From Magnetococcales bacterium (GTDB taxonomy: Bacteria > Pseudomonadota > Magnetococcia > Magnetococcales > UBA8363), in assembly GCA_015228925.1 (NCBI GenBank), contig JADGCQ010000003.1:1-64000 (forward strand): a stretch of DNA of 64,000 nucleotides, written 5' to 3'. The position numbers were made by a program, and so were the translations under genes. The notes under the pieces are model-generated. The model saw only the letters and a list, made by a program, of their open reading frames with translations, ran no database searches and was not told the origin of the DNA. Below are positions 10,920-20,794 of the stretch, one piece after another. Each line of letters opens with the position of its first letter. Positions within the stretch are counted from its first letter, which is position 1.

Positions 10920-11831
10920 GTGAATAACCTAAAAAAAACTGTCGGTCTCTTCGTTGGTGTTACCACCTTGGATATTCAATATCGGATCGATGGCTTCCCA
11001 TCCCCCAATACAAAACACTATGCCGATGAATGGGGTACCTTCGTCGGGGGGCCGGCAACCAACGCCGCAACCGTTTTTTCTCACCTTGGGGGAACCAGCA
11101 AACTGTATACAGGTGTGGGAAATAATCCCTTCACCGCACGCATCGCCGAAGATTTTCATAACTCCAAAATTCAATGGGAAGATATCTTTCACCAGCAATC
11201 AACGACCCCTCCCATCGCTTCAATCTTTACCAATCGACACAATGGGGATCGTACTATCGTGACCTATTTGCCCGACAAAACCACCGTCGATCCCGGTCTC
11301 CTCAATCTGGAATTTCTTGAAGAAGCCCACATCCTCATGGCCGACGGATTCTTTCTGGATGTGGCGATCCCCCTCGCACACAAAGCCAGAGAAAAAAATA
11401 TCCCCGTCGTGTTCGATGGGGGCAGTTGGAAGCCTGGTCTGGAAAACCTGATCCGACTGACCGATATCGCCATCGTATCCGAACGATTTTTATCCCCAAA
11501 TTCGGCGGTAAACCAAGATGTCATCGCGTCGTTGCATGATTGGGGATGCACCAAAGTGGCCGTGACCCGGGGAGAAAAACCGATCATCGTCTCCGAGGGG
11601 AATGGGCGGTTTGAACTGGCCGTGGAACCCATCCATGCCGTGGATACGTTGGCGGCGGGAGATTTCTTCCATGGTGCATTCTGTTATGATTATCTTAAAA
11701 CAGACGATTTCGTTGCATCGCTCAAACAGGCCGCCCATATTGCGGGACTCTCCTGCCAATCCTTTGGGACACGAGGGTGGTTGCAGAAACTTGCTCATCT
11801 GGAAAAGTCAGGAAGTGATGGCGGCCAGTAG
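10920..11831 (+). CDS. PfkB-family sugar or nucleoside kinase
   Basis: A ribokinase-fold kinase that phosphorylates a small hydroxylated substrate with ATP. The 303-residue protein shows the N-terminal PfkB pattern (F-V-G-G-P-A-T-N-A-A near residue 41, where the sugar-binding Gly-Gly lies), a central FDGGSWKPG segment and the C-terminal signature D-T-L-A-A-G-D-F-F-H-G-A-F near residue 245 with the catalytic Asp. The substrate cannot be told from sequence. It starts at GTG without a strong ribosome site. It converges with the ATPase-like gene on the other strand and the two coding regions overlap by 24 bases. It is not obviously part of the PqqD/ATP-grasp set. Confidence 0.8.
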   Translation: MNNLKKTVGLFVGVTTLDIQYRIDGFPSPNTKHYADEWGTFVGGPATNAATVFSHLGGTSKLYTGVGNNPFTARIAEDFHNSKIQWEDIFHQQSTTPPIASIFTNRHNGDRTIVTYLPDKTTVDPGLLNLEFLEEAHILMADGFFLDVAIPLAHKAREKNIPVVFDGGSWKPGLENLIRLTDIAIVSERFLSPNSAVNQDVIASLHDWGCTKVAVTRGEKPIIVSEGNGRFELAVEPIHAVDTLAAGDFFHGAFCYDYLKTDDFVASLKQAAHIAGLSCQSFGTRGWLQKLAHLEKSGSDGGQ

Positions 11832-12752
11832 GCGTTGGCCCATCTCCCGGATACATCCACTTCTCCAAACCAACGTGTACTCCTTGGCTTTCACGATCCC
11901 TTGCCAATATAGCTTTTGCAGCAAAGAATCCCCGACCCAGGCCAGGGTAATCTCCCCCAGATCCTCTTGCGTAAGCAGGTCAGACAAACGTTGATGATCG
12001 GCTGGGTTGGACAAAACATGCGACCAAACGCGGGCCATGAGCGTTTGATCACGCAGCAATAATTCATGAAATAAAATATCCTGGTCTTGCCCCCAAGCGT
12101 GCAGGCACTGCATCGATAACCATCCATGCCCTCCGGTCACTTCCAGAATCGAATCGCTGACCGGGGGTGGCAAGGAGAGGGATTGATGACTGGCCCGCTC
12201 CTGCAATTCCATCGAGGAAAAACCCGGTAGTTCACAGACCGTGGCACTGTTGAGCAGAGAAGATTCACCATCCGCATGGGCCAGATGGTATAACCGTTCG
12301 CCACCGCAGAATACCACCCGGAACGGATCATAGATGGCGGTGGCACGATGCAGCAGGGCGGCCAGATCATACCGCAAGGATTCAGAAATGGTCTCAATGC
12401 CCATAACCAGGAAAAAGGCTTGACCCTGCTTGTCGGCCAAAAAATCCAATAACCCCTGTTCAAAATCGGACCGGGAATCAATCTTCCGGGTGATGCCAAG
12501 CTGCTGGGCCAGCGATGGGAAAAAACGGTCGTCCGCATCATCCCGACTGGCGGCTGGGGTGAGCAGCCAAGTATGACCTTCGGGAAAACGGGGTTGTACG
12601 CGCTCCAGCAAAACCCGAATGACCGTATCCGGGTCTCGATCCGCTTGATGCAGAATCAACAGCATCTTGGCAAGCCAAAGATATTCCTCCACGTCGTCAA
12701 GGAACGTCCGTTCGTTGCCACAAGGAGACCGCTCGGAAATTTTATGTGTCAT
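11808..12752 (-). CDS. AAA/STAND ATPase-like protein lacking a P-loop
   Basis: A 314-residue soluble protein whose general layout resembles STAND or AAA_35-type ATPases. A central block QAFFLVMGIETISESLRYDL occupies the place of a Walker B strand and following helix (near residue 120). A later AVVFCGG-like strand, a GGHGWLSMQCL helix and a C-terminal winged-helix-like stretch (LLQKLYWQGIVKAKEYTLVW) complete the pattern. No GxxxxGK[ST] P-loop is present and the Walker B acidic pair is not conserved, so ATP hydrolysis is unlikely. It follows the urea-transporter/M23 fusion by 121 bases on the same strand. Its function is unknown; a regulatory or scaffold role for the neighbouring set is possible. 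Confidence 0.5.
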   Translation of the reverse strand: MTHKISERSPCGNERTFLDDVEEYLWLAKMLLILHQADRDPDTVIRVLLERVQPRFPEGHTWLLTPAASRDDADDRFFPSLAQQLGITRKIDSRSDFEQGLLDFLADKQGQAFFLVMGIETISESLRYDLAALLHRATAIYDPFRVVFCGGERLYHLAHADGESSLLNSATVCELPGFSSMELQERASHQSLSLPPPVSDSILEVTGGHGWLSMQCLHAWGQDQDILFHELLLRDQTLMARVWSHVLSNPADHQRLSDLLTQEDLGEITLAWVGDSLLQKLYWQGIVKAKEYTLVWRSGCIREMGQRLLAAITS

Positions 12753-12873
12753 GGCGGATGATCACGCGATGGAAAACCATGATGGTCCCAGAAAAATCGT
12801 TTCTATTGTACTCAAACCGACACCATAACAGTCATCCCAAGGAATTTCCATGGCTGCCAAACCGGAATGCCCC

Positions 12874-15033
12874 TCAGGTTGTTTCGCCCACCCCCGTTTC
12901 CCAGCCGCTGATGCCGTGATCCGCTTGCATTCCATGGCGAACCAGCTCGCCTTGAAGGGTTCGCTTGGCGGTATGCAGGCGGAAACGGGTCCACCCCAGG
13001 CTTTCGGAAAGTTCGGCACTTCCATGGCATGACCAGACGATGTGACCGCCCCAAGTGATCACGCGATGATGAACATCTTGGACCCAACACAGACGCATCG
13101 GTTGCCATTGGCGGGTATAACGGCTTTCACCCTTCAGGATGCCTGGAAAACACCAATGGACGATGCGCAACCACCAGGGGGCCGGTAACCAATGGATGGG
13201 AATGGTATCCCTCCAGGAGATCGCCTCTTCACACAGCGGCGTTAAAGCGGTGGTCAACAGGAGGGCATCCAGGGATGGATCGGCCCCCCCCTGGCGTCCA
13301 TGGAGGGCGATGAGGGTATCGGTTTGAACAAAGGCGATTTTGGCGTTTTTGTCGGAAACCAGCCATAGAGTTCCCGCCAGGTCAATATCCACTTTCACGG
13401 TGAGCTGGGCCGGGAGATCCTGCATGGCATAGGTGAATGTCCGTCCGACATCCCGCCGTAGGGATAGGGCCAGGAGGGGATTGGGGCTGGGGTGTTGCAG
13501 GCTTTCTTGTTCCTGGGGAATATGGTCCAGCATCAGATGGTTTTCTCCCCCCTGCACAACGATGACATTGGCCAGGTGAAAGGGGCGGGTAGGATTGCCC
13601 AACCATGGCCCTTGTTGCACATGCAGATGAATGTGGGGTTGGGGTGAACGGCCCGAATTACCGCAACGGGCCAGGATTTGTCCTACGACGACAAAGGCGT
13701 TGACGCCAATGGTGAGGCTACCTTGTTGTATGTGGGACAGCAGGACATGATGGCCATCGGTGAGGGCGATGAGCAAAAAATTACCCCAACAATGCTCGGA
13801 ATCGATCTGGCCGGGGGGATTGTCGGGGAGGTCGTCGCGGCAGGCACTGACAGTGCCGGTGACCGGGGAACAAATGGCCGCACCAAAGCAATGATAATCG
13901 GTCAGTTGGCGTCCGTCACCGTGATGGGCCGAACCGCCCTGTATTTTGTGAAAATCCAGCCCGTGACGCCATAGCCCCTGGTGGGTATGGGGTCCATCCC
14001 ACCCTTGATACACCTGCCAAGTGCCCAAAAAAGGGGGTCTAAGGCCCACACTCCCCTCGGAAACCCCACGGGCCTCCGCCATAGCCATGACTTCGGCAAC
14101 CGTTTCCGGGATTTGGGGGGGGGAAATCCAATAGCGGCCCCAGGTTTCTCCCGCCCATGGTCCCAGGGCGGTCATCAACAACCAGGTGGTTGTGATAAAG
14201 GCCAGCGATAGGGGGGGGAGACCCAGGTAATAAAAAATATTATAGGTACCGAGAGAGACAAATCCGACGACCGCTGCGCCAACGATGGTTACCAGAAAGG
14301 TGCGTCCAACGGGGCGGGCAAAAACTCCCCCTGCCATCAGGGCGGTCAACATGGCGGCGGTCCCCGCGAGCGACAAGGGGATGGTGTAGGGCAACACCCC
14401 CAGCATCCGTAATTCCCCGGTGACGACGATGAATGCCAGGATGATCATCAAAAACAGGCGTCGGGAGGAGAGCAGTATGGCCAAGCCAATCAACACCCCG
14501 CCACTGGGCGACGGGGAAAAATAGATCTGCCCCATGGAAATCAACCAAGCAAGGATGGGGCTGGCAACCCATTGATAGAGAAAAAGGTCAACGGGGTTGG
14601 GGAGGTGGGGCACGGCTCCAGGGAGGACCAAGGCACGTCCAACGGCATAAAGCCCCACGCCAATGATGAACAAGGGCGATGAAAGGATGGGCAAGCCCCA
14701 GGGTAATGCGACGGTGGCATAAATCAAACGGCTTACCAAAGTTGCCAATAATCCCGCCAGGAGAGTCAAGGTGATGGTCGCGGGGGTGGGGGCAAAAAAT
14801 GTCCCCACCATCAAACCCAACAAAACCCCATTGACCACATCCAGGTCTGCCACCTGGTTGGGCAAGGCCAAAAGCCGACGACAGCTCAAGCTTGCCGCCC
14901 CTCCCAGCAGACCCATGAGTCCGACGGGGGGATTGAGCAAGGTGGCCGCAACCAAAAGCCAGTGGGCCTTACGGGATTTAAAATATAAAAATGAGCCGTA
15001 AGCACCCAGCAAGGTGTGGAAAAAAGGCCACAA
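12874..15033 (-). CDS. Urea-transporter/M23 peptidase fusion protein
   Basis: A 719-residue two-part protein. Residues 1-300 form about ten hydrophobic segments matching the urea-transporter (UT) fold; the half-repeat signature DLDVVNGVLLGLMVG and a second, related half near residue 180-260 are visible. After a short linker, residues 335-490 form an M23 (lysostaphin-type) zinc metallopeptidase domain. It has H351 in GPHTHQG, D360 in HGLDF, the APV-like CSPVTGTV turn and the H467-I-H469 motif in PHIHLHV, so all zinc and catalytic positions are present. About 230 further residues of unknown fold follow. I chose the TTG at 15033, two bases past the decarboxylase stop and preceded by GGAAG. A GTG at 15117 would overlap the decarboxylase by 82 bases. 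The peptidase part probably faces the periplasm. Confidence 0.8.
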   Translation of the reverse strand: MWPFFHTLLGAYGSFLYFKSRKAHWLLVAATLLNPPVGLMGLLGGAASLSCRRLLALPNQVADLDVVNGVLLGLMVGTFFAPTPATITLTLLAGLLATLVSRLIYATVALPWGLPILSSPLFIIGVGLYAVGRALVLPGAVPHLPNPVDLFLYQWVASPILAWLISMGQIYFSPSPSGGVLIGLAILLSSRRLFLMIILAFIVVTGELRMLGVLPYTIPLSLAGTAAMLTALMAGGVFARPVGRTFLVTIVGAAVVGFVSLGTYNIFYYLGLPPLSLAFITTTWLLMTALGPWAGETWGRYWISPPQIPETVAEVMAMAEARGVSEGSVGLRPPFLGTWQVYQGWDGPHTHQGLWRHGLDFHKIQGGSAHHGDGRQLTDYHCFGAAICSPVTGTVSACRDDLPDNPPGQIDSEHCWGNFLLIALTDGHHVLLSHIQQGSLTIGVNAFVVVGQILARCGNSGRSPQPHIHLHVQQGPWLGNPTRPFHLANVIVVQGGENHLMLDHIPQEQESLQHPSPNPLLALSLRRDVGRTFTYAMQDLPAQLTVKVDIDLAGTLWLVSDKNAKIAFVQTDTLIALHGRQGGADPSLDALLLTTALTPLCEEAISWRDTIPIHWLPAPWWLRIVHWCFPGILKGESRYTRQWQPMRLCWVQDVHHRVITWGGHIVWSCHGSAELSESLGWTRFRLHTAKRTLQGELVRHGMQADHGISGWETGVGETT

Positions 15034-15035
15034 CT

Positions 15036-16445
15036 CTAGTCTTCCATGGGTTGGGGGAGGGGGAGCCAGGAACCGGGATTGGGAGTCAGGCGCGCAGGGA
15101 TCCGTTCGGGTTCGCACAGGGTCGATAAGGTTTCGCCCTGGCGGATGATTTCATGGGTGCCGTTGGGTGAGAGGAGTATAATGGCGGGACGCAGTTCGAT
15201 GAACTGGAGCCATTGGGTGTTGTTGTAGGCCCCGACCGGGGAAAAAACCAGCCGATCTCCTACTTTCAAGGGGGGGAGACTCACCAGTTGGCGCATACAG
15301 TCGATATTCATGCACAATGGGCCGTAGAGAACCGTTTCTTCGGGAATACCCCCATTGGGTTGAACCAACCGGACCGGATGGTGATACCATAGAGCCGTCA
15401 GCATCAGGTTGATTCCCCCATCCAAAATGACCCCACGCTTGCCATCGACCAACCGTTTGGTCCCGACCACGGTGGCGACCAACGATTGAGCATCGTCGAT
15501 CACGGCGCGTCCGCTTTCGATGATCAAGACTGGCGGCGGTCCAGGACGATCCGATAACCCTTTTTTCAGGGCCTTTCCCACCGTCTGGGCAAATTCTTCA
15601 ATCTCTGGGACCGCCTGTTCGGGGGGGGCGTAGACCCCTTGGAGGGCGTTGCGCGATGGAAAACCACCGCCGATGTCCAGATAGGTGATGCGGGTGTTAC
15701 CATCTTTTTCCATCTCTTGCATAAAATCGGTCATGAGGCGGATCTGTTCCCCATAGGCGCGGGGATCGAGGATGAACGTCCCCAAATGGCTGTGCAAGCC
15801 GTTGAGGGTCAGGTGTGGGCTACAGCGGATGCGGAGGGCCGCTTCGTGGGCTTGACCATTTTCCAGGTTAAAACCAAACCGGCTCCAGGGTTCGGTGTAG
15901 CCGGTATTGAAATTCAAACGCAAGGCGACGGGTACCACACGGTTTTGCTCTTTGGCGATGGCCTCGATAAGGCTGAGTTCATCCAGATGATCACAATGGA
16001 TATGGGCACCTTCGGCGATGGCCCGTTCCAAAATTGGACGTGGTTTATAAGGGCCGTTGAACAAAATACGATTGCCGGGTACACCCAAAAGGCGGGCTTT
16101 TTCGTACTCCGGTTTGGAAACGACCTCGGCCCAGGAGCCTTCCTGGTGGAGAATGCGGCATACGGCACTGAGGGTATTGGTTTTATAGGACCAGCCATGG
16201 ATCACGCTGGGGTGATGGCGTTCAAAGGCTTGGCGAATCGCCCGCACATTGTGGCGCAGCCGCTGTTCCGAGGTGATAAAAAGTGGCGATCCGTAGAGAT
16301 TAACGAGGTCATCGATGGGAAGGCCATCAATCTCGGAGCGGGATGAGTCGCTGCGGCGATGACCAAATTTGTTGATGGCCCCCAGATGCAGGGGTTGAAT
16401 CATGGGGGGTTCCCAGATGAGTGTCAAAGGTGACGGTTGATTCAT
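15036..16445 (-). CDS. PLP-dependent decarboxylase, alanine racemase fold (DAP/ornithine type)
   Basis: A fold-type III PLP enzyme of the diaminopimelate/ornithine/carboxynorspermidine decarboxylase group, 469 residues. The PLP-binding lysine is K88 in SYKTN. Further hallmarks are H-S-H-L-G near residue 215, the phosphate-binding D-I-G-G-G-F-P near 260, E-S-G-R near 320, and the second-subunit G-P-L-C-x-x-x-D near 385 that supplies the catalytic Cys and Asp. The substrate-specificity helix does not match a standard LysA or SpeC/NspC that I can name. Its company (PqqD-like protein, ATP-grasp ligase) points to a specialised product rather than lysine synthesis. It sits 30 bases after the ATP-grasp gene in the same operon. 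Confidence 0.82.
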   Translation of the reverse strand: MNQPSPLTLIWEPPMIQPLHLGAINKFGHRRSDSSRSEIDGLPIDDLVNLYGSPLFITSEQRLRHNVRAIRQAFERHHPSVIHGWSYKTNTLSAVCRILHQEGSWAEVVSKPEYEKARLLGVPGNRILFNGPYKPRPILERAIAEGAHIHCDHLDELSLIEAIAKEQNRVVPVALRLNFNTGYTEPWSRFGFNLENGQAHEAALRIRCSPHLTLNGLHSHLGTFILDPRAYGEQIRLMTDFMQEMEKDGNTRITYLDIGGGFPSRNALQGVYAPPEQAVPEIEEFAQTVGKALKKGLSDRPGPPPVLIIESGRAVIDDAQSLVATVVGTKRLVDGKRGVILDGGINLMLTALWYHHPVRLVQPNGGIPEETVLYGPLCMNIDCMRQLVSLPPLKVGDRLVFSPVGAYNNTQWLQFIELRPAIILLSPNGTHEIIRQGETLSTLCEPERIPARLTPNPGSWLPLPQPMED

Positions 16446-16475
16446 AACGATGCCTTTCCCTCATGCAAGGGGTGG

Positions 16476-17549
16476 TCAATGGGTGCCGGTGGTGGCGATG
16501 GCCGCCAGTTGGTCGAGACTGACGATGACATCCTGGGCATGACGAATAAACAGGGTGCCGGTCACGGGTGCGGCCAACCCAGGGCAAGCCTCCTGGGCCA
16601 TCAGGTGCATCAGGATGGCGGGTAGGTTGCGTCCCACGGCATGGCTCAAGTAAACCCACGAGGGGAAACGGGGGTTGATCTCCACCAGATAAAGTTTGCC
16701 ATCTTCACCTTTGAGGGCTTCAACCTCCAAAGGACCGTGCCAGGATAAATGGGTGGCCAGCGTTTGTGCCATGGCCAAAAGATCATGATCTTCGATGCTC
16801 ACCCCGGCCCAAGCCTTCCCTTTGTCGGTGATCGCCCGTTTGCGCATCATCACCGCCCCCAAAAGGGTGCTGTCTGCATCACACACAGCGGTCAGGTTGA
16901 TTTCATGGCCGGGGATAAACCGTTGTACCAGCAGGGGATAACCCCACTGTTGGGCGATGCGCCAGCAGGCGGCTTTGGCCTCGGCGGGATGGTGAACCAC
17001 CTGGGCATCATAGAACAGCCCTTTGACCACCAGGGGATAGTGCCAACCCGACTCATGGCATTCTTCAAAAAAACGGAGATCGTTGATGGTACGGGTTTCC
17101 GGGGTATCCACACCCGTTGCATGGCACAGGGCGGGAAGGCGATCTTTACCCCGTTTGGCAAGGCTGTGCCGACTGGGGAGCAATGTGGTGATTTCCAGTT
17201 GGGACAAGGTGGCTGATAAACAGAGAAAATTGATCAATTCCGAGTCCAGACAGGGGATGATGGCGTCCATGTGGTCTCTCGCCTGTATTTCTTGCAAACG
17301 CTGTCTGAGCGATTCTTCCCCCGTGGAGGGGTAGGGGAGGAGATAGGCGGTATCGCACGATGAATCATGGTAGATCCCCGCATCCAGGCTGTCATAGCCC
17401 AGGCCGATCAAACGCCCGTGGAATTCGGGATGTTCGCGCAAGCAGCGGGCTACCGCCATGCCAGGACCGGGATTATCCGGGCGGGCGTTCATTCCGGTAA
17501 TGGCAATGGACCAAGTTCGCCAATCGTTTCTTGGGTGGCTGGTATTCAT
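16476..17549 (-). CDS. ATP-grasp carboxylate-amine ligase
   Basis: A 357-residue ATP-grasp enzyme. It activates a carboxylate as acyl phosphate and joins it to an amine or thiol. The preATP-grasp Rossmann-like domain (about 1-115) opens WSIAITGMNARPDNPGPGMAVA. The ATP-binding block PLVVKGLFYDAQ lies near residue 170, LVQRFIPGHEINLTAV near 205 and the metal-binding LYLVEINPRFPSW near 285, so the active site looks intact. The closest general style is the CarB/PylC-like stand-alone ligases. Its ATG overlaps the stop of the PqqD-like gene (ATGA), implying coupled expression. The substrate is unknown; a peptide or protein-bound substrate presented by the PqqD-like partner is an inference. Confidence 0.85.
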   Translation of the reverse strand: MNTSHPRNDWRTWSIAITGMNARPDNPGPGMAVARCLREHPEFHGRLIGLGYDSLDAGIYHDSSCDTAYLLPYPSTGEESLRQRLQEIQARDHMDAIIPCLDSELINFLCLSATLSQLEITTLLPSRHSLAKRGKDRLPALCHATGVDTPETRTINDLRFFEECHESGWHYPLVVKGLFYDAQVVHHPAEAKAACWRIAQQWGYPLLVQRFIPGHEINLTAVCDADSTLLGAVMMRKRAITDKGKAWAGVSIEDHDLLAMAQTLATHLSWHGPLEVEALKGEDGKLYLVEINPRFPSWVYLSHAVGRNLPAILMHLMAQEACPGLAAPVTGTLFIRHAQDVIVSLDQLAAIATTGTH

Positions 17550-17821
17550 GGCAGATTTCTGGCCAATTGACGCAGAAAACCTTCCACTCCCCCCAATGCG
17601 ACTTCTAACGGCACACGGTAAACCTCTGCAAGTTTTACGGCGATTTCACGCGCCGATATCCCCCCTTGCAACAGTTCCAGGGTTGTAAGTCCGGTGGCAT
17701 TGACAGTGAAGCTTTGGCCACTTTTGGGGTCAAAGACAAAGCCATTGCGGCTGACCGCCAGGCTTCCCAGGCGGCTCATGTCCACGGTTTGAGAGAAGAC
17801 GGATTGGGCAGAGGCAGACAT
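17546..17821 (-). CDS. PqqD-like (RRE-type) small protein
   Basis: A 91-residue protein with the PqqD/RiPP-recognition-element pattern: beta strands GFVFDPKSGQSFTVN, then the turn A-T-G-L-T-T-L-E-L-L-Q-G-G and two helices (AREIAVKLAEVY and EVALGGVEGFLRQL). In characterised systems such domains bind a leader peptide and deliver it to a modifying enzyme. It is the first gene of a minus-strand unit and overlaps the ATP-grasp gene by four bases. No obvious precursor peptide with a leader and core is seen nearby, and there is no radical SAM enzyme. The 25-residue N-terminal tail before the domain is Ser-rich and probably disordered. Confidence 0.72.
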   Translation of the reverse strand: MSASAQSVFSQTVDMSRLGSLAVSRNGFVFDPKSGQSFTVNATGLTTLELLQGGISAREIAVKLAEVYRVPLEVALGGVEGFLRQLARNLP

Positions 17822-17958: not shown

Positions 17959-18002
17959 GATCACGGGGGTCCAGGGGATCATTTCCCCGAACCCCCGTGA
18001 TC
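17959..18002. terminator. Long intergenic hairpin
   Basis: A near-perfect inverted repeat: GATCACGGGGGT..GGGG pairs with CCCC..ACCCCCGTGATC around an ATCATTT loop, followed by ATTTTCCCC. It lies between the TPR gene and the PqqD-like gene, both on the minus strand. It could end the barrel-TPR transcript. Its core resembles the GGGGGTCC..ATCAT element at 3050-3080, so it may also be a repeat-family member. Confidence 0.55.
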
Positions 18003-18074: not shown

Positions 18075-18758
18075 TTATTGTTTCAGAAAGGCCGTTGCCT
18101 CAAGATGGCCCGGAATTCGGTTCAAAACCTTCACATAAGCATCCCGGGCAAGGTTTTTATGGTTCAGCCACAGGTGCGCACGCGCCATGTAGACCAGGGC
18201 ATCGGTATCGGTTGGATAATGGCTAGCCAGAGTTGTGGCATAACCCAGCAAGTTTTCCCATTGTTTTTGGCCTTCGGTGGCGACCATCATCCGTTGAAGG
18301 GCGGTTTGGTTAAGACGGGAAAGTTCCAGCACCGATCCGGCAAAAGCTGCCGTTTCACGATAGCGTTGTTGCGCCAGGAGCGGCAACGTGATCCCCAGGA
18401 GGGCGTCGATGGAGTGGCCGTTGGTACGGAGTGCCAACCGATAATAATGGATGGATACATTGTGCTGGCCTTGGAGATAGTTCAACCACCCCAGGCGGAG
18501 CATGACCAACTCCTGGTCACCATTTCGGGTTTCATGCAGGGGGAGAATGACCTCGGCGGCTTCGACGTACCGACCTGCCGTTTCCAGGGCATAGGACCGC
18601 TTGAACAGTTCGGCGGCGGTTGCGGGAACTTGGCTGGAAACCTTCGGCAGCGTAGAATTCTTGTCGCTTACGGTGTTTGTGGCACTTTGGGCGTCTGTGG
18701 TATGCCATGCGACAAACCAACCCATGATGGCTGCAAGAACAATAACAGATCGGGTCAT
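18075..18758 (-). CDS. Periplasmic TPR protein
   Basis: A 227-residue exported protein with a signal peptide (MTRSVIVLAAIMGWFVAW, cut near the SATN that follows) and about four tetratricopeptide repeats from residue 50 onward. Typical TPR positions can be read, such as LGWLNYLQGQHNVSIHYYRLAL, AALLGI-like turns and ALVYMARAHLWLNHKNLARDAY. The frame is open further upstream, but the ATG at 18758 has GGTG before it and gives a proper signal peptide. It starts four bases after the stop of the beta-barrel gene, so the two are co-transcribed. The pairing suggests a periplasmic adaptor for the outer-membrane barrel. Confidence 0.72.
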   Translation of the reverse strand: MTRSVIVLAAIMGWFVAWHTTDAQSATNTVSDKNSTLPKVSSQVPATAAELFKRSYALETAGRYVEAAEVILPLHETRNGDQELVMLRLGWLNYLQGQHNVSIHYYRLALRTNGHSIDALLGITLPLLAQQRYRETAAFAGSVLELSRLNQTALQRMMVATEGQKQWENLLGYATTLASHYPTDTDALVYMARAHLWLNHKNLARDAYVKVLNRIPGHLEATAFLKQ

Positions 18759-18762
18759 GATA

Positions 18763-19686
18763 TCACCAGTTGTAGGAATAGGAAAGATAGAGTGAACGGC
18801 TGTCGTATTTGTCGCTGATTGTTTTGTTTTCGTAGGCTTCGTAGCCGCCAAGGAGGAGGATGTTGGCATGGGTTCCCACGCGCCATTCCAGACCCATGGA
18901 GGCGGATCCTTTCTGGGTATCGGCGAGATTATAAACCGAGGCACCATCCAAATCGACATTCAGAATTTTTTCGCCCACCATCCCGTTGGCCTTCAAGCTG
19001 TTGAGACGCAGAAAGTTATCGGGATCGAACCAGTGGCTCCATTTGATGTCGAGCGCGACGGTATCATCCATTGTCTGACCTGCGACGGGATTGACGACAT
19101 CGATCAGGGTGGGCCTCAGGGAGACCCAGTCCGATTTGTCGTTGAAGGCCATGCCGACGGCGGGTGAGAATTGTCGTGCCGACAAGTCGCTGTAGTAGTC
19201 GCTATAAGCACCCGCCACTTCCAGAGACCATGTTTGATCAAACGGGGAGAAGGAGACGACGGGGGCGGCCACTTTGACATCATCGGAATTGCGGGTTGAA
19301 TCATCGTTGTTGATGAGGTGTCCATCCACCCGCAGACCAAGACGACCGCCCCAATGGTCGGGTGTTAGGTTTGCCCGGAGGCTGGCAAAAAAGGCGTCTT
19401 GTGAGATATCCTGGGTGGGTGCGACGAACGTGACTTCGGCATGATTATAGCCCAGGGTGAAGCCATAACGCTCGTAATAATCGGAACTGAAGAAGATCCC
19501 TTCGCCGTGAAACCGTTCGCGCAGACTGGAACCGGAATAATCCCCGACCACCCCTTGCAAGGAGACGCCGGGATACCACGGGCCTTCCAGAGGGGGGCCG
19601 TGCGGTGCTTCCATCGCAACGGCGTCCACGGCGAGCAGGCTCAAAGCAGTACTCAATGCGCAGGGGAGAATGGACAATTGGCGCAC
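18763..19686 (-). CDS. Outer-membrane beta-barrel protein
   Basis: A 307-residue exported protein. From a GTG start with GGGAG seven bases upstream, it gives a clean signal peptide (MRQLSILPCALSTALSLLAV, then DAVA). The mature part alternates aromatic and polar residues in the manner of transmembrane beta strands (YGFTLGYNHAEVTF, LGLRVDGHLI, WSLEVAGAYSDYY). It ends in a C-terminal aromatic residue (LYLSYSYNW), the signal for BAM-mediated insertion. About 12-14 strands seem likely. An in-frame ATG at 19818 would add 44 residues that fit a signal peptide poorly. The specific family is not recognised. Confidence 0.72.
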   Translation of the reverse strand: MRQLSILPCALSTALSLLAVDAVAMEAPHGPPLEGPWYPGVSLQGVVGDYSGSSLRERFHGEGIFFSSDYYERYGFTLGYNHAEVTFVAPTQDISQDAFFASLRANLTPDHWGGRLGLRVDGHLINNDDSTRNSDDVKVAAPVVSFSPFDQTWSLEVAGAYSDYYSDLSARQFSPAVGMAFNDKSDWVSLRPTLIDVVNPVAGQTMDDTVALDIKWSHWFDPDNFLRLNSLKANGMVGEKILNVDLDGASVYNLADTQKGSASMGLEWRVGTHANILLLGGYEAYENKTISDKYDSRSLYLSYSYNW

Positions 19687-19894
19687 AACAAGGCTCCCGT
19701 CAAATAGGTTTTTGAACACGGTTTTGATCACAAAAAGCGCAACAAGCAACCGGACACCGCCTTGCTCCAGGAATTTCCCGACTGGCCCAATGCGTGAACG
19801 GTGAATCTTATTTCTCAAAAGGTAACCAAGCGTGGCCTTATCTCACATTCTTATGAATATGTCAAGAAATTTATTGCGATAATTGTCGATGGTG

Positions 19895-20794
19895 CTATGC
19901 GTTGAGAAACACATCATCCCATGAGTGGGCGTCCAAGATGCGATCAGTCCATGTTTCGATCTCGCCCAAAGTTGCGGCGGCCAGTTTGGATTCCACTTCG
20001 GCGGTGAGCGGTGATCCAAATTTTTTTTGAAGTAAACGCCGGAGGATGGCAACCTCACCTTCCCGACGCCCCTTTTCTTCCCCCTCTTCCAGGGCTAATT
20101 CAATGGCACCACGGGCGTCGGTAATGGCCATCCCAGCTTTGTCATAATACCTCAGCTCCGCACGGCTCATGTTGGCCACACGCGCTTTTTCAAAAGCATG
20201 TTGAATGGGGGCATCGTGAAGATTGGAAGGGATTTCATCCAGGATGCCGGCACTTTTGATAAAATAGATCCATTTGTCCAACATCGATGTCAGGGTATCG
20301 ATCGGCTTGTCAAATTTAGATAGTTCGACAAAATAATAGACAATTTCCTTGAGTAAGGACCGGCCACCCGATGTTTCTACCGTCTGATGGTGAGAGACAT
20401 AGCCCGGAATATCATCGAACAGAGTAAAATCGGTAATGGTGACGGCAATTACCTGATTCAGTTTGGGATAGTCCTCGGCACTGGCGATCTGGTTGACGTA
20501 GGCTTTGGCGGCGTTGTACTGAATCCGTTTGAGAAACGCCCGAACTTTGCGAATCTGCATTTCCACAAGATAGGTGACACCGCGATAATCGACGCAGTGA
20601 ACATCCAATACCGACTCTTTCATCCCTTCAATACGTGGAGCCAGCGTGGGATCAAGCAACGTGATTTCCCTGATTCGCCGGTCGCCCTCCAGGTTCATGA
20701 GGCTTTCCAAAAAACTGATCAAGATATCCTTGGCGTCTTCGCTGCCAAAGATTTTTTTGAAGGCAAAATCAATCCTGGGATCAATAAATCTCAT
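19895..20794 (-). CDS. Rpn-family PD-(D/E)XK nuclease (transposase-like)
   Basis: A 299-residue member of the Rpn/YhgA-like group, which act as DNA endonucleases linked to recA-independent recombination and were earlier annotated as putative transposases. It begins MRFIDPRIDFAFKKIFGSE, the family hallmark. The degenerate PD-(D/E)XK core is visible as D64 (VLDVHC) and E78-x-Q80 (YLVEMQ). The C-terminal half contains an acidic/basic helix (ALEEGEEKGRREGE) and a short helical tail DAHSWDDVFLNA. The same type of tail occurs in the second, diverged copy at 60303-61265. It is a single gene, not flanked by inverted repeats. Confidence 0.82.
   Translation of the reverse strand: MRFIDPRIDFAFKKIFGSEDAKDILISFLESLMNLEGDRRIREITLLDPTLAPRIEGMKESVLDVHCVDYRGVTYLVEMQIRKVRAFLKRIQYNAAKAYVNQIASAEDYPKLNQVIAVTITDFTLFDDIPGYVSHHQTVETSGGRSLLKEIVYYFVELSKFDKPIDTLTSMLDKWIYFIKSAGILDEIPSNLHDAPIQHAFEKARVANMSRAELRYYDKAGMAITDARGAIELALEEGEEKGRREGEVAILRRLLQKKFGSPLTAEVESKLAAATLGEIETWTDRILDAHSWDDVFLNA

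Follow-up and report, generated by a model that had tools for sequence, protein, structure and literature searches.

In butirosin synthesis, the ATP-grasp ligase BtrJ is paired with the decarboxylase BtrK. BtrK is an AR-fold enzyme that acts on a carrier-bound amino acid, and together with FigC, SbnH, AcsE and MccE it belongs to clade 2, a group of AR-fold decarboxylases for conjugated substrates that is set outside polyamine synthesis (PMC7857480). The FigA/FigC (FslA/FslC) rhizoferrin pathway of Francisella follows the same logic of ligase first, then decarboxylase, on a conjugated amino acid. RiPP systems such as those for lasso peptides and PQQ place an RRE-type protein beside a modifying enzyme. 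The dvUT/SLC14 urea channels and the M23 (LytM) peptidases have the folds of the two main domains of the fusion protein described below.

The window analyzed in the current study, a stretch of 64,000 nucleotides from a Magnetococcales bacterium, carries a gene set (the cassette) in which elements of all these systems are found side by side. No description of this combination was found in the open-access PMC literature, although subscription journals could hold one. Neither the combination nor its fusion protein matches any described system found there. Judged from its characterized relatives, it may be a dedicated biosynthesis-and-release system, a reading that we hold tentatively and put somewhat short of an even chance.

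Organization and conservation of the gene set

Four genes follow one another on the minus strand, and all ORFs were present with the domains originally predicted. The first encodes a small PqqD-like (RRE-type) protein (17546..17821; 91 aa; PF05402, 38.9 bits against a cutoff of 23.4), and shares a 4-bp ATGA overlap with the gene of the ATP-grasp ligase (16476..17549; 357 aa; PF15632, ATPgrasp_Ter, 42.2 bits). These are followed by an AR-fold (fold-III) PLP decarboxylase of the FigC/FslC-like type (15036..16445; PF02784, Orn_Arg_deC_N, 101 bits), and by a 719 aa fusion of a UT channel, an M23-like domain and a C-terminal domain (UT-M23; 12874..15033; UT PF03253, 97.3 bits). The mechanical ORF of UT-M23 spans 12874-15117, and the gene probably starts at the TTG at 15033, immediately past the decarboxylase stop codon.

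Among the source genome and its relatives, the ATP-grasp gene was found in 17 of 61 genomes, and all 18 loci also held the PqqD and PLP genes in identical order. A scan of 84,980 GTDB species genomes gave at least 568 related ATP-grasp stretches, 80 of which were examined. After removal of duplicates there were 94 distinct loci, and adjacency was counted over the testable loci only. The gene order is shared by these loci across several phyla, the hosts being Magnetococcales, Zeta-, Gamma-, Beta- and Alphaproteobacteria, Obscuribacterales/Melainabacteria, Eremiobacterota, Geothrix, Desulfobulbaceae and one Anaeromyxobacter MAG. PqqD adjoins the ATP-grasp gene in every testable locus (91/91, with a 4-bp overlap in 55), the decarboxylase comes next in 84/86, and UT-M23 is nearby in 75/79. 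Four loci hold the first three genes without UT-M23, one of them in a 97%-complete genome, and minimal four-gene forms occur amid unrelated flanks (L105, L118). In the two decarboxylase exceptions (L052 and L112) the gene is present, with an overlapping ORF call.

Within the phylum, 31 of 399 genomes carried both ATP-grasp and UT-M23, while five had ATP-grasp alone and four UT-M23 alone (Fisher p 1.2e-36, a value that overstates independence because the genomes are related to one another). Pairwise distances of the four proteins were correlated over 74 loci (r 0.67–0.88), with a permutation maximum of 0.18. These data show that the four genes are inherited together as a single conserved unit, to which genes for an outer-membrane barrel and a TPR protein are often added. 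The original prediction of a single uncharacterized unit, with no radical SAM protein, ABC exporter or detectable precursor in the cassette, was thus borne out. The four genes proved to be neighbours in other genomes, which had been set there as a test of the prediction. A chance neighbourhood of housekeeping genes, for which nothing was found to speak, is refuted by the conserved order, the co-occurrence, the correlated divergence and the separation from LysA described below, and its probability is practically nil. A set whose order is preserved in several bacterial phyla must do something useful.

Upstream of the four genes, also on the minus strand, lie a TPR protein with a likely signal peptide, which would place it in the periplasm (18075..18758), and an outer-membrane beta-barrel-like protein (OMP; 18763..19686, start approximate; ORF 18763-19818). 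The barrel-like protein has no Pfam family, and a Pfam search of 26 homologues gave no match. TPR homologues were found near the cassette in 36 and barrel homologues in 33 of the 59 testable loci; one or the other was present in 40, and about a third had no recognizable OMP or TPR. They lie either ahead of the cassette, as in this window, or downstream of it, after UT-M23, and in some Magnetococcales a fused TPR-barrel protein replaces the separate genes. The wider set includes both the OMP and the TPR gene, which had been overlooked in the original prediction, as had the fusions of PqqD to a TetR domain and the two-component neighbours discussed below. A perfect inverted repeat without assigned strand (17959..18002; -45 kcal/mol, z -6.8), single copy in the genome, separates the TPR and PqqD genes.

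Downstream of the set, an ATPase-like ORF (11808..12752, minus strand), for which only a sub-threshold AAA_35 match was obtained, had been counted as a member. It was seen beside the cassette solely in a 97%-identical relative, and is therefore not part of the set. Asparagine-synthase genes recur near seven loci.

The ligase, the decarboxylase and the PqqD-like protein

The ATP-grasp ligase has the invariant residues K135, K176, E290, N292 and R294, typical of the fold, and its nearest solved chain is 2pn1. The decarboxylase scored 205.8 bits against the LysA model TIGR01048 (cutoff 297.9). The LysA proper of the same genome is encoded elsewhere (526 bits, CESGD loop), and the LysA proteins of the cassette genomes score 518–538 bits. 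The catalytic-Cys loop of the cassette enzyme reads C-M-N-I-D, with CMN where LysA has CES; there is no acidic residue beside the catalytic Cys, and the CM loop is FigC-like. Helix residues T350, W353 and Y354 are invariant in 25 sequences. In a tree built without SbnH, AcsE, MccE and BtrK, all cassette decarboxylases formed one clade, joined to FigC (100/99), with the LysA proteins of these genomes outside it; the FigC placement is less certain than the LysA separation because of long branches. A LysA-like housekeeping role was rejected on the sub-cutoff score, the CMN loop and the separate clade. Clustering with housekeeping LysA, suggested originally as a sign of chance assembly, was thus not seen, and the set stands.

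The closest solved relative is FigC (7kh2), an N-citrylornithine decarboxylase. In FigC, M355 occupies the site of the acidic residue that binds the side-chain amine in enzymes for free basic amino acids (PMC7857480). Since the CM loop matches M355, a free diamino acid appears unlikely as substrate. The citrate-contacting His357 of FigC (Lys347 in SbnH) corresponds to Ile381, and citrate therefore seems an unlikely moiety of the substrate as well. This residue bears on a small-molecule metallophore, similar to the NIS siderophores, in which common metabolites would be turned by the enzymes into a decarboxylated amide chelator and exported through UT and the barrel. The grouping of the decarboxylase with FigC of rhizoferrin synthesis speaks for such a product, but the citrate contact is lost, and no NIS synthetase, MFS exporter or TonB receptor is recurrent beside the cassette, so that a metallophore is judged improbable.

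Although the CM loop is common to both decarboxylases, the Fig ligase is an NIS synthetase rather than an ATP-grasp enzyme, and the Fig system has neither an RRE nor UT-M23. The BtrJ/BtrK pair resembles the pairing proposed here, but butirosin synthesis uses an acyl carrier protein, none of which was found in the cassette, and BtrK is only a moderate relative of the cassette decarboxylase (about 130 bits).

The nearest solved relatives of the PqqD-like protein are the lasso-peptide RREs TfuB1/TbiB1. This likeness is consistent with a RiPP-type pathway with a genuine RRE, in which a ribosomal precursor, its gene located elsewhere in the genome, would be modified by the ATP-grasp ligase and the decarboxylase, with the M23 domain as leader peptidase. 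The related decarboxylase MccE works on a peptide antibiotic (PMC7857480), in line with this idea. On the other hand, a search for conserved small ORFs within 2 kb of the cassettes gave none, contrary to the suggestion that one always accompanies the set; what families there were turned out to be shadow ORFs or a DNA element resembling an operator. A recurrent short 'ORF' upstream in Zetaproteobacteria, considered as a precursor, is better read as this element, a short conserved DNA stretch that precedes TetR-PqqD. An N-terminal TetR domain is fused to PqqD in 16 distinct loci, which is unusual for an RRE, and there is no RiPP exporter. Unlike lasso-peptide and PQQ systems, the cassette has no detectable precursor, and no radical SAM protein, B2 peptidase or cyclase. 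A RiPP-type pathway is accordingly considered unlikely.

The UT-M23 fusion protein

The AlphaFold2 model of UT-M23 had a mean pLDDT of 94.7, and Foldseek matched its first 300 residues to dvUT and its middle part to LytM/M23. The UT channel domain (residues 1-300; 14134..15033, minus strand) aligned with 3me1 (E 1e-12) and 3k3f at a target-normalised TM-score of about 0.8, and the solved relatives of this part are urea channels. The pore Thr positions are conserved in dvUT, UT-A2 and UT-B (PMC4357013). Here the filter positions are altered: the dvUT Thr130 site is Ser, Gly or Cys in 53/53 sequences, and the Thr294 site is Thr in just 8/53. Judged from these changes, plain urea is therefore doubtful as cargo of the channel.

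In the M23-like domain (residues 330-484; 13582..14046, minus strand), the Pfam score of 27.2 bits is slightly under the cutoff of 28.7, and the metal/catalytic set H351, D360, H434, H467 and H469, assigned to the metal site by alignment only, is invariant in 53/53 sequences. The C-terminal all-beta domain (residues 485-719, 235 residues; 12874..13581, minus strand) matches no Pfam family and shows a weak likeness to the LolA/YmcC fold (E 5e-3, TM about 0.3). While the two main domains have the folds of dvUT/SLC14 channels and LytM, they differ from these in being one chain, in the changed pore Thr residues, in a first metal motif of H-x8-D instead of HxxxD, and in the extra C-terminal domain. 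No full-length solved relative of this architecture was found.

The M23 domain had been predicted to be a periplasmic endopeptidase. The UT loop between T5a and Pb is on the outer side (PMC4357013), which together with the UT inverted repeat places both termini inside. Arg and Lys residues lie on the side of the membrane that also holds the C-terminus (positive-inside bias), and the C-terminal 400 aa contain on average about 6.4 Cys. Because of this topology, charge bias and Cys content, a cytoplasmic M23 domain is favoured, though not proven. Against this location, proteins with M23 or LolA-like folds are as a rule found in the periplasm, and M23 proteins of similar sequence around H-x8-D exist as separate, apparently secreted proteins with a signal peptide. 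A C382-C457 disulfide was rejected as proof of a periplasmic domain, as there was no strict covariation.

Proposed function and regulation

In the proposed biosynthesis-and-release system, the PqqD-like protein would present a substrate (a peptide or another carrier) to the ATP-grasp ligase, which would join it to an amino acid by an amide (or ester/thioester) bond. The decarboxylase would then act on the conjugated rather than the free amino acid, as do FigC, SbnH, MccE and BtrK, giving a conjugate that is decarboxylated and bears an amine. At the cytoplasmic side of UT, the M23 domain may cut the product free, and the altered channel, followed by the TPR/barrel pair, would pass it out of the cell. 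Gene order, co-occurrence, correlated divergence, the FigC-like loop, the invariant ATP-grasp residues, the altered pore and the variant loci described below all argue for this system, whereas the lack of a precursor or carrier in the cassette, the four loci without UT-M23, and the third without OMP/TPR speak against it. It is possible, but rather unlikely, that the set represents a new class of synthesis-coupled export, in which the RRE-guided ligase/decarboxylase pair builds the amine-bearing conjugate, a hydrolase domain fixed at the inner, cytoplasmic opening of a repurposed urea channel sets it free straight into the channel, and the periplasmic/outer-membrane pair completes the path. The complete six-gene form is present in the isolate Mariprofundus sp. 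EBB-1, which opens the product to direct search.

Histidine kinase genes were found near 29 of 98 loci, and OmpR-type regulators near 24 of 98. Either such a two-component pair or the TetR domain on PqqD probably controls expression in many lineages. The same regulators would suit a system for sensing or uptake, in which barrel, TPR and UT import a small amide or amine that M23 and the enzymes process in the cytoplasm, and UT proteins are passive channels. However, the characterized relatives of the ATP-grasp ligases and of the clade-2 decarboxylases are biosynthetic, and the enzymes occur without UT-M23 in several genomes, making uptake quite an unlikely role.

Two genomes (G027 and G033) possess UT-M23, TPR and barrel genes, and the cassette ATP-grasp gene is absent from both. 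In these (loci L149 and L150), UT-M23-TPR-barrel lies beside an AAT-fold OKR decarboxylase (OKR_DC), a PRK06524-type ATP-grasp protein and a C45 acyltransferase/hydrolase. Eight further genomes hold this trio, and UT-M23 was not found in the surroundings examined there. It resembles the cassette in combining ATP-grasp with an amino-acid decarboxylase, but its decarboxylase has a different, unrelated fold (AAT). The channel and envelope genes are thus joined to two unrelated modules of ATP-grasp plus amino-acid decarboxylase, indicating that they follow this chemistry, and this is the strongest hint that the UT-M23 channel serves its product.

Sequence elements beside the PqqD genes

A conserved element, TGTGAAAGTAAACACTCTCATTT, lies a short distance upstream of the genes for PqqD proteins with an N-terminal TetR domain at three loci (L062, 8617-8650; L073, 9133-9165, where the copy differs by one base; and L082, 1809-1845), and is likely to be an operator. 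In the window, a perfect inverted repeat (17959-18002; -45 kcal/mol as RNA, z -6.8) separates the TPR and PqqD genes. It is present as a single copy genome-wide in the source genome, and may be the boundary of two transcripts. A putative transposase of the Rpn/PDDEXK_2 family (19895-20794) adjoins the barrel gene.

Variant and reduced gene sets

A variant operon (L149, 1411-10583; L150, 8967-18233) contains UT-M23, TPR, an OKR_DC decarboxylase, a PRK06524-like ATP-grasp, a C45 acyltransferase/hydrolase and the barrel. The OKR_DC, ATP-grasp and C45 trio was also found without UT-M23 (L187-L194). In a Legionella MAG, the three-gene core without UT-M23 (L075, 9663-12540) is directly preceded by large conjugation-type genes, suggesting that it is mobile-element cargo.

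Related domains outside the cassette

Two stand-alone M23 proteins (L152, 6061-7122; L153, 6431-7528), apparently secreted, resemble the UT-M23 fusion in sequence around the first metal motif. The source genome encodes a second PqqD domain, which is N-terminal in a multi-pass membrane protein of 714 aa (L038, 7667-9811; G000:C184); the gene for this protein adjoins a SecA-like gene.
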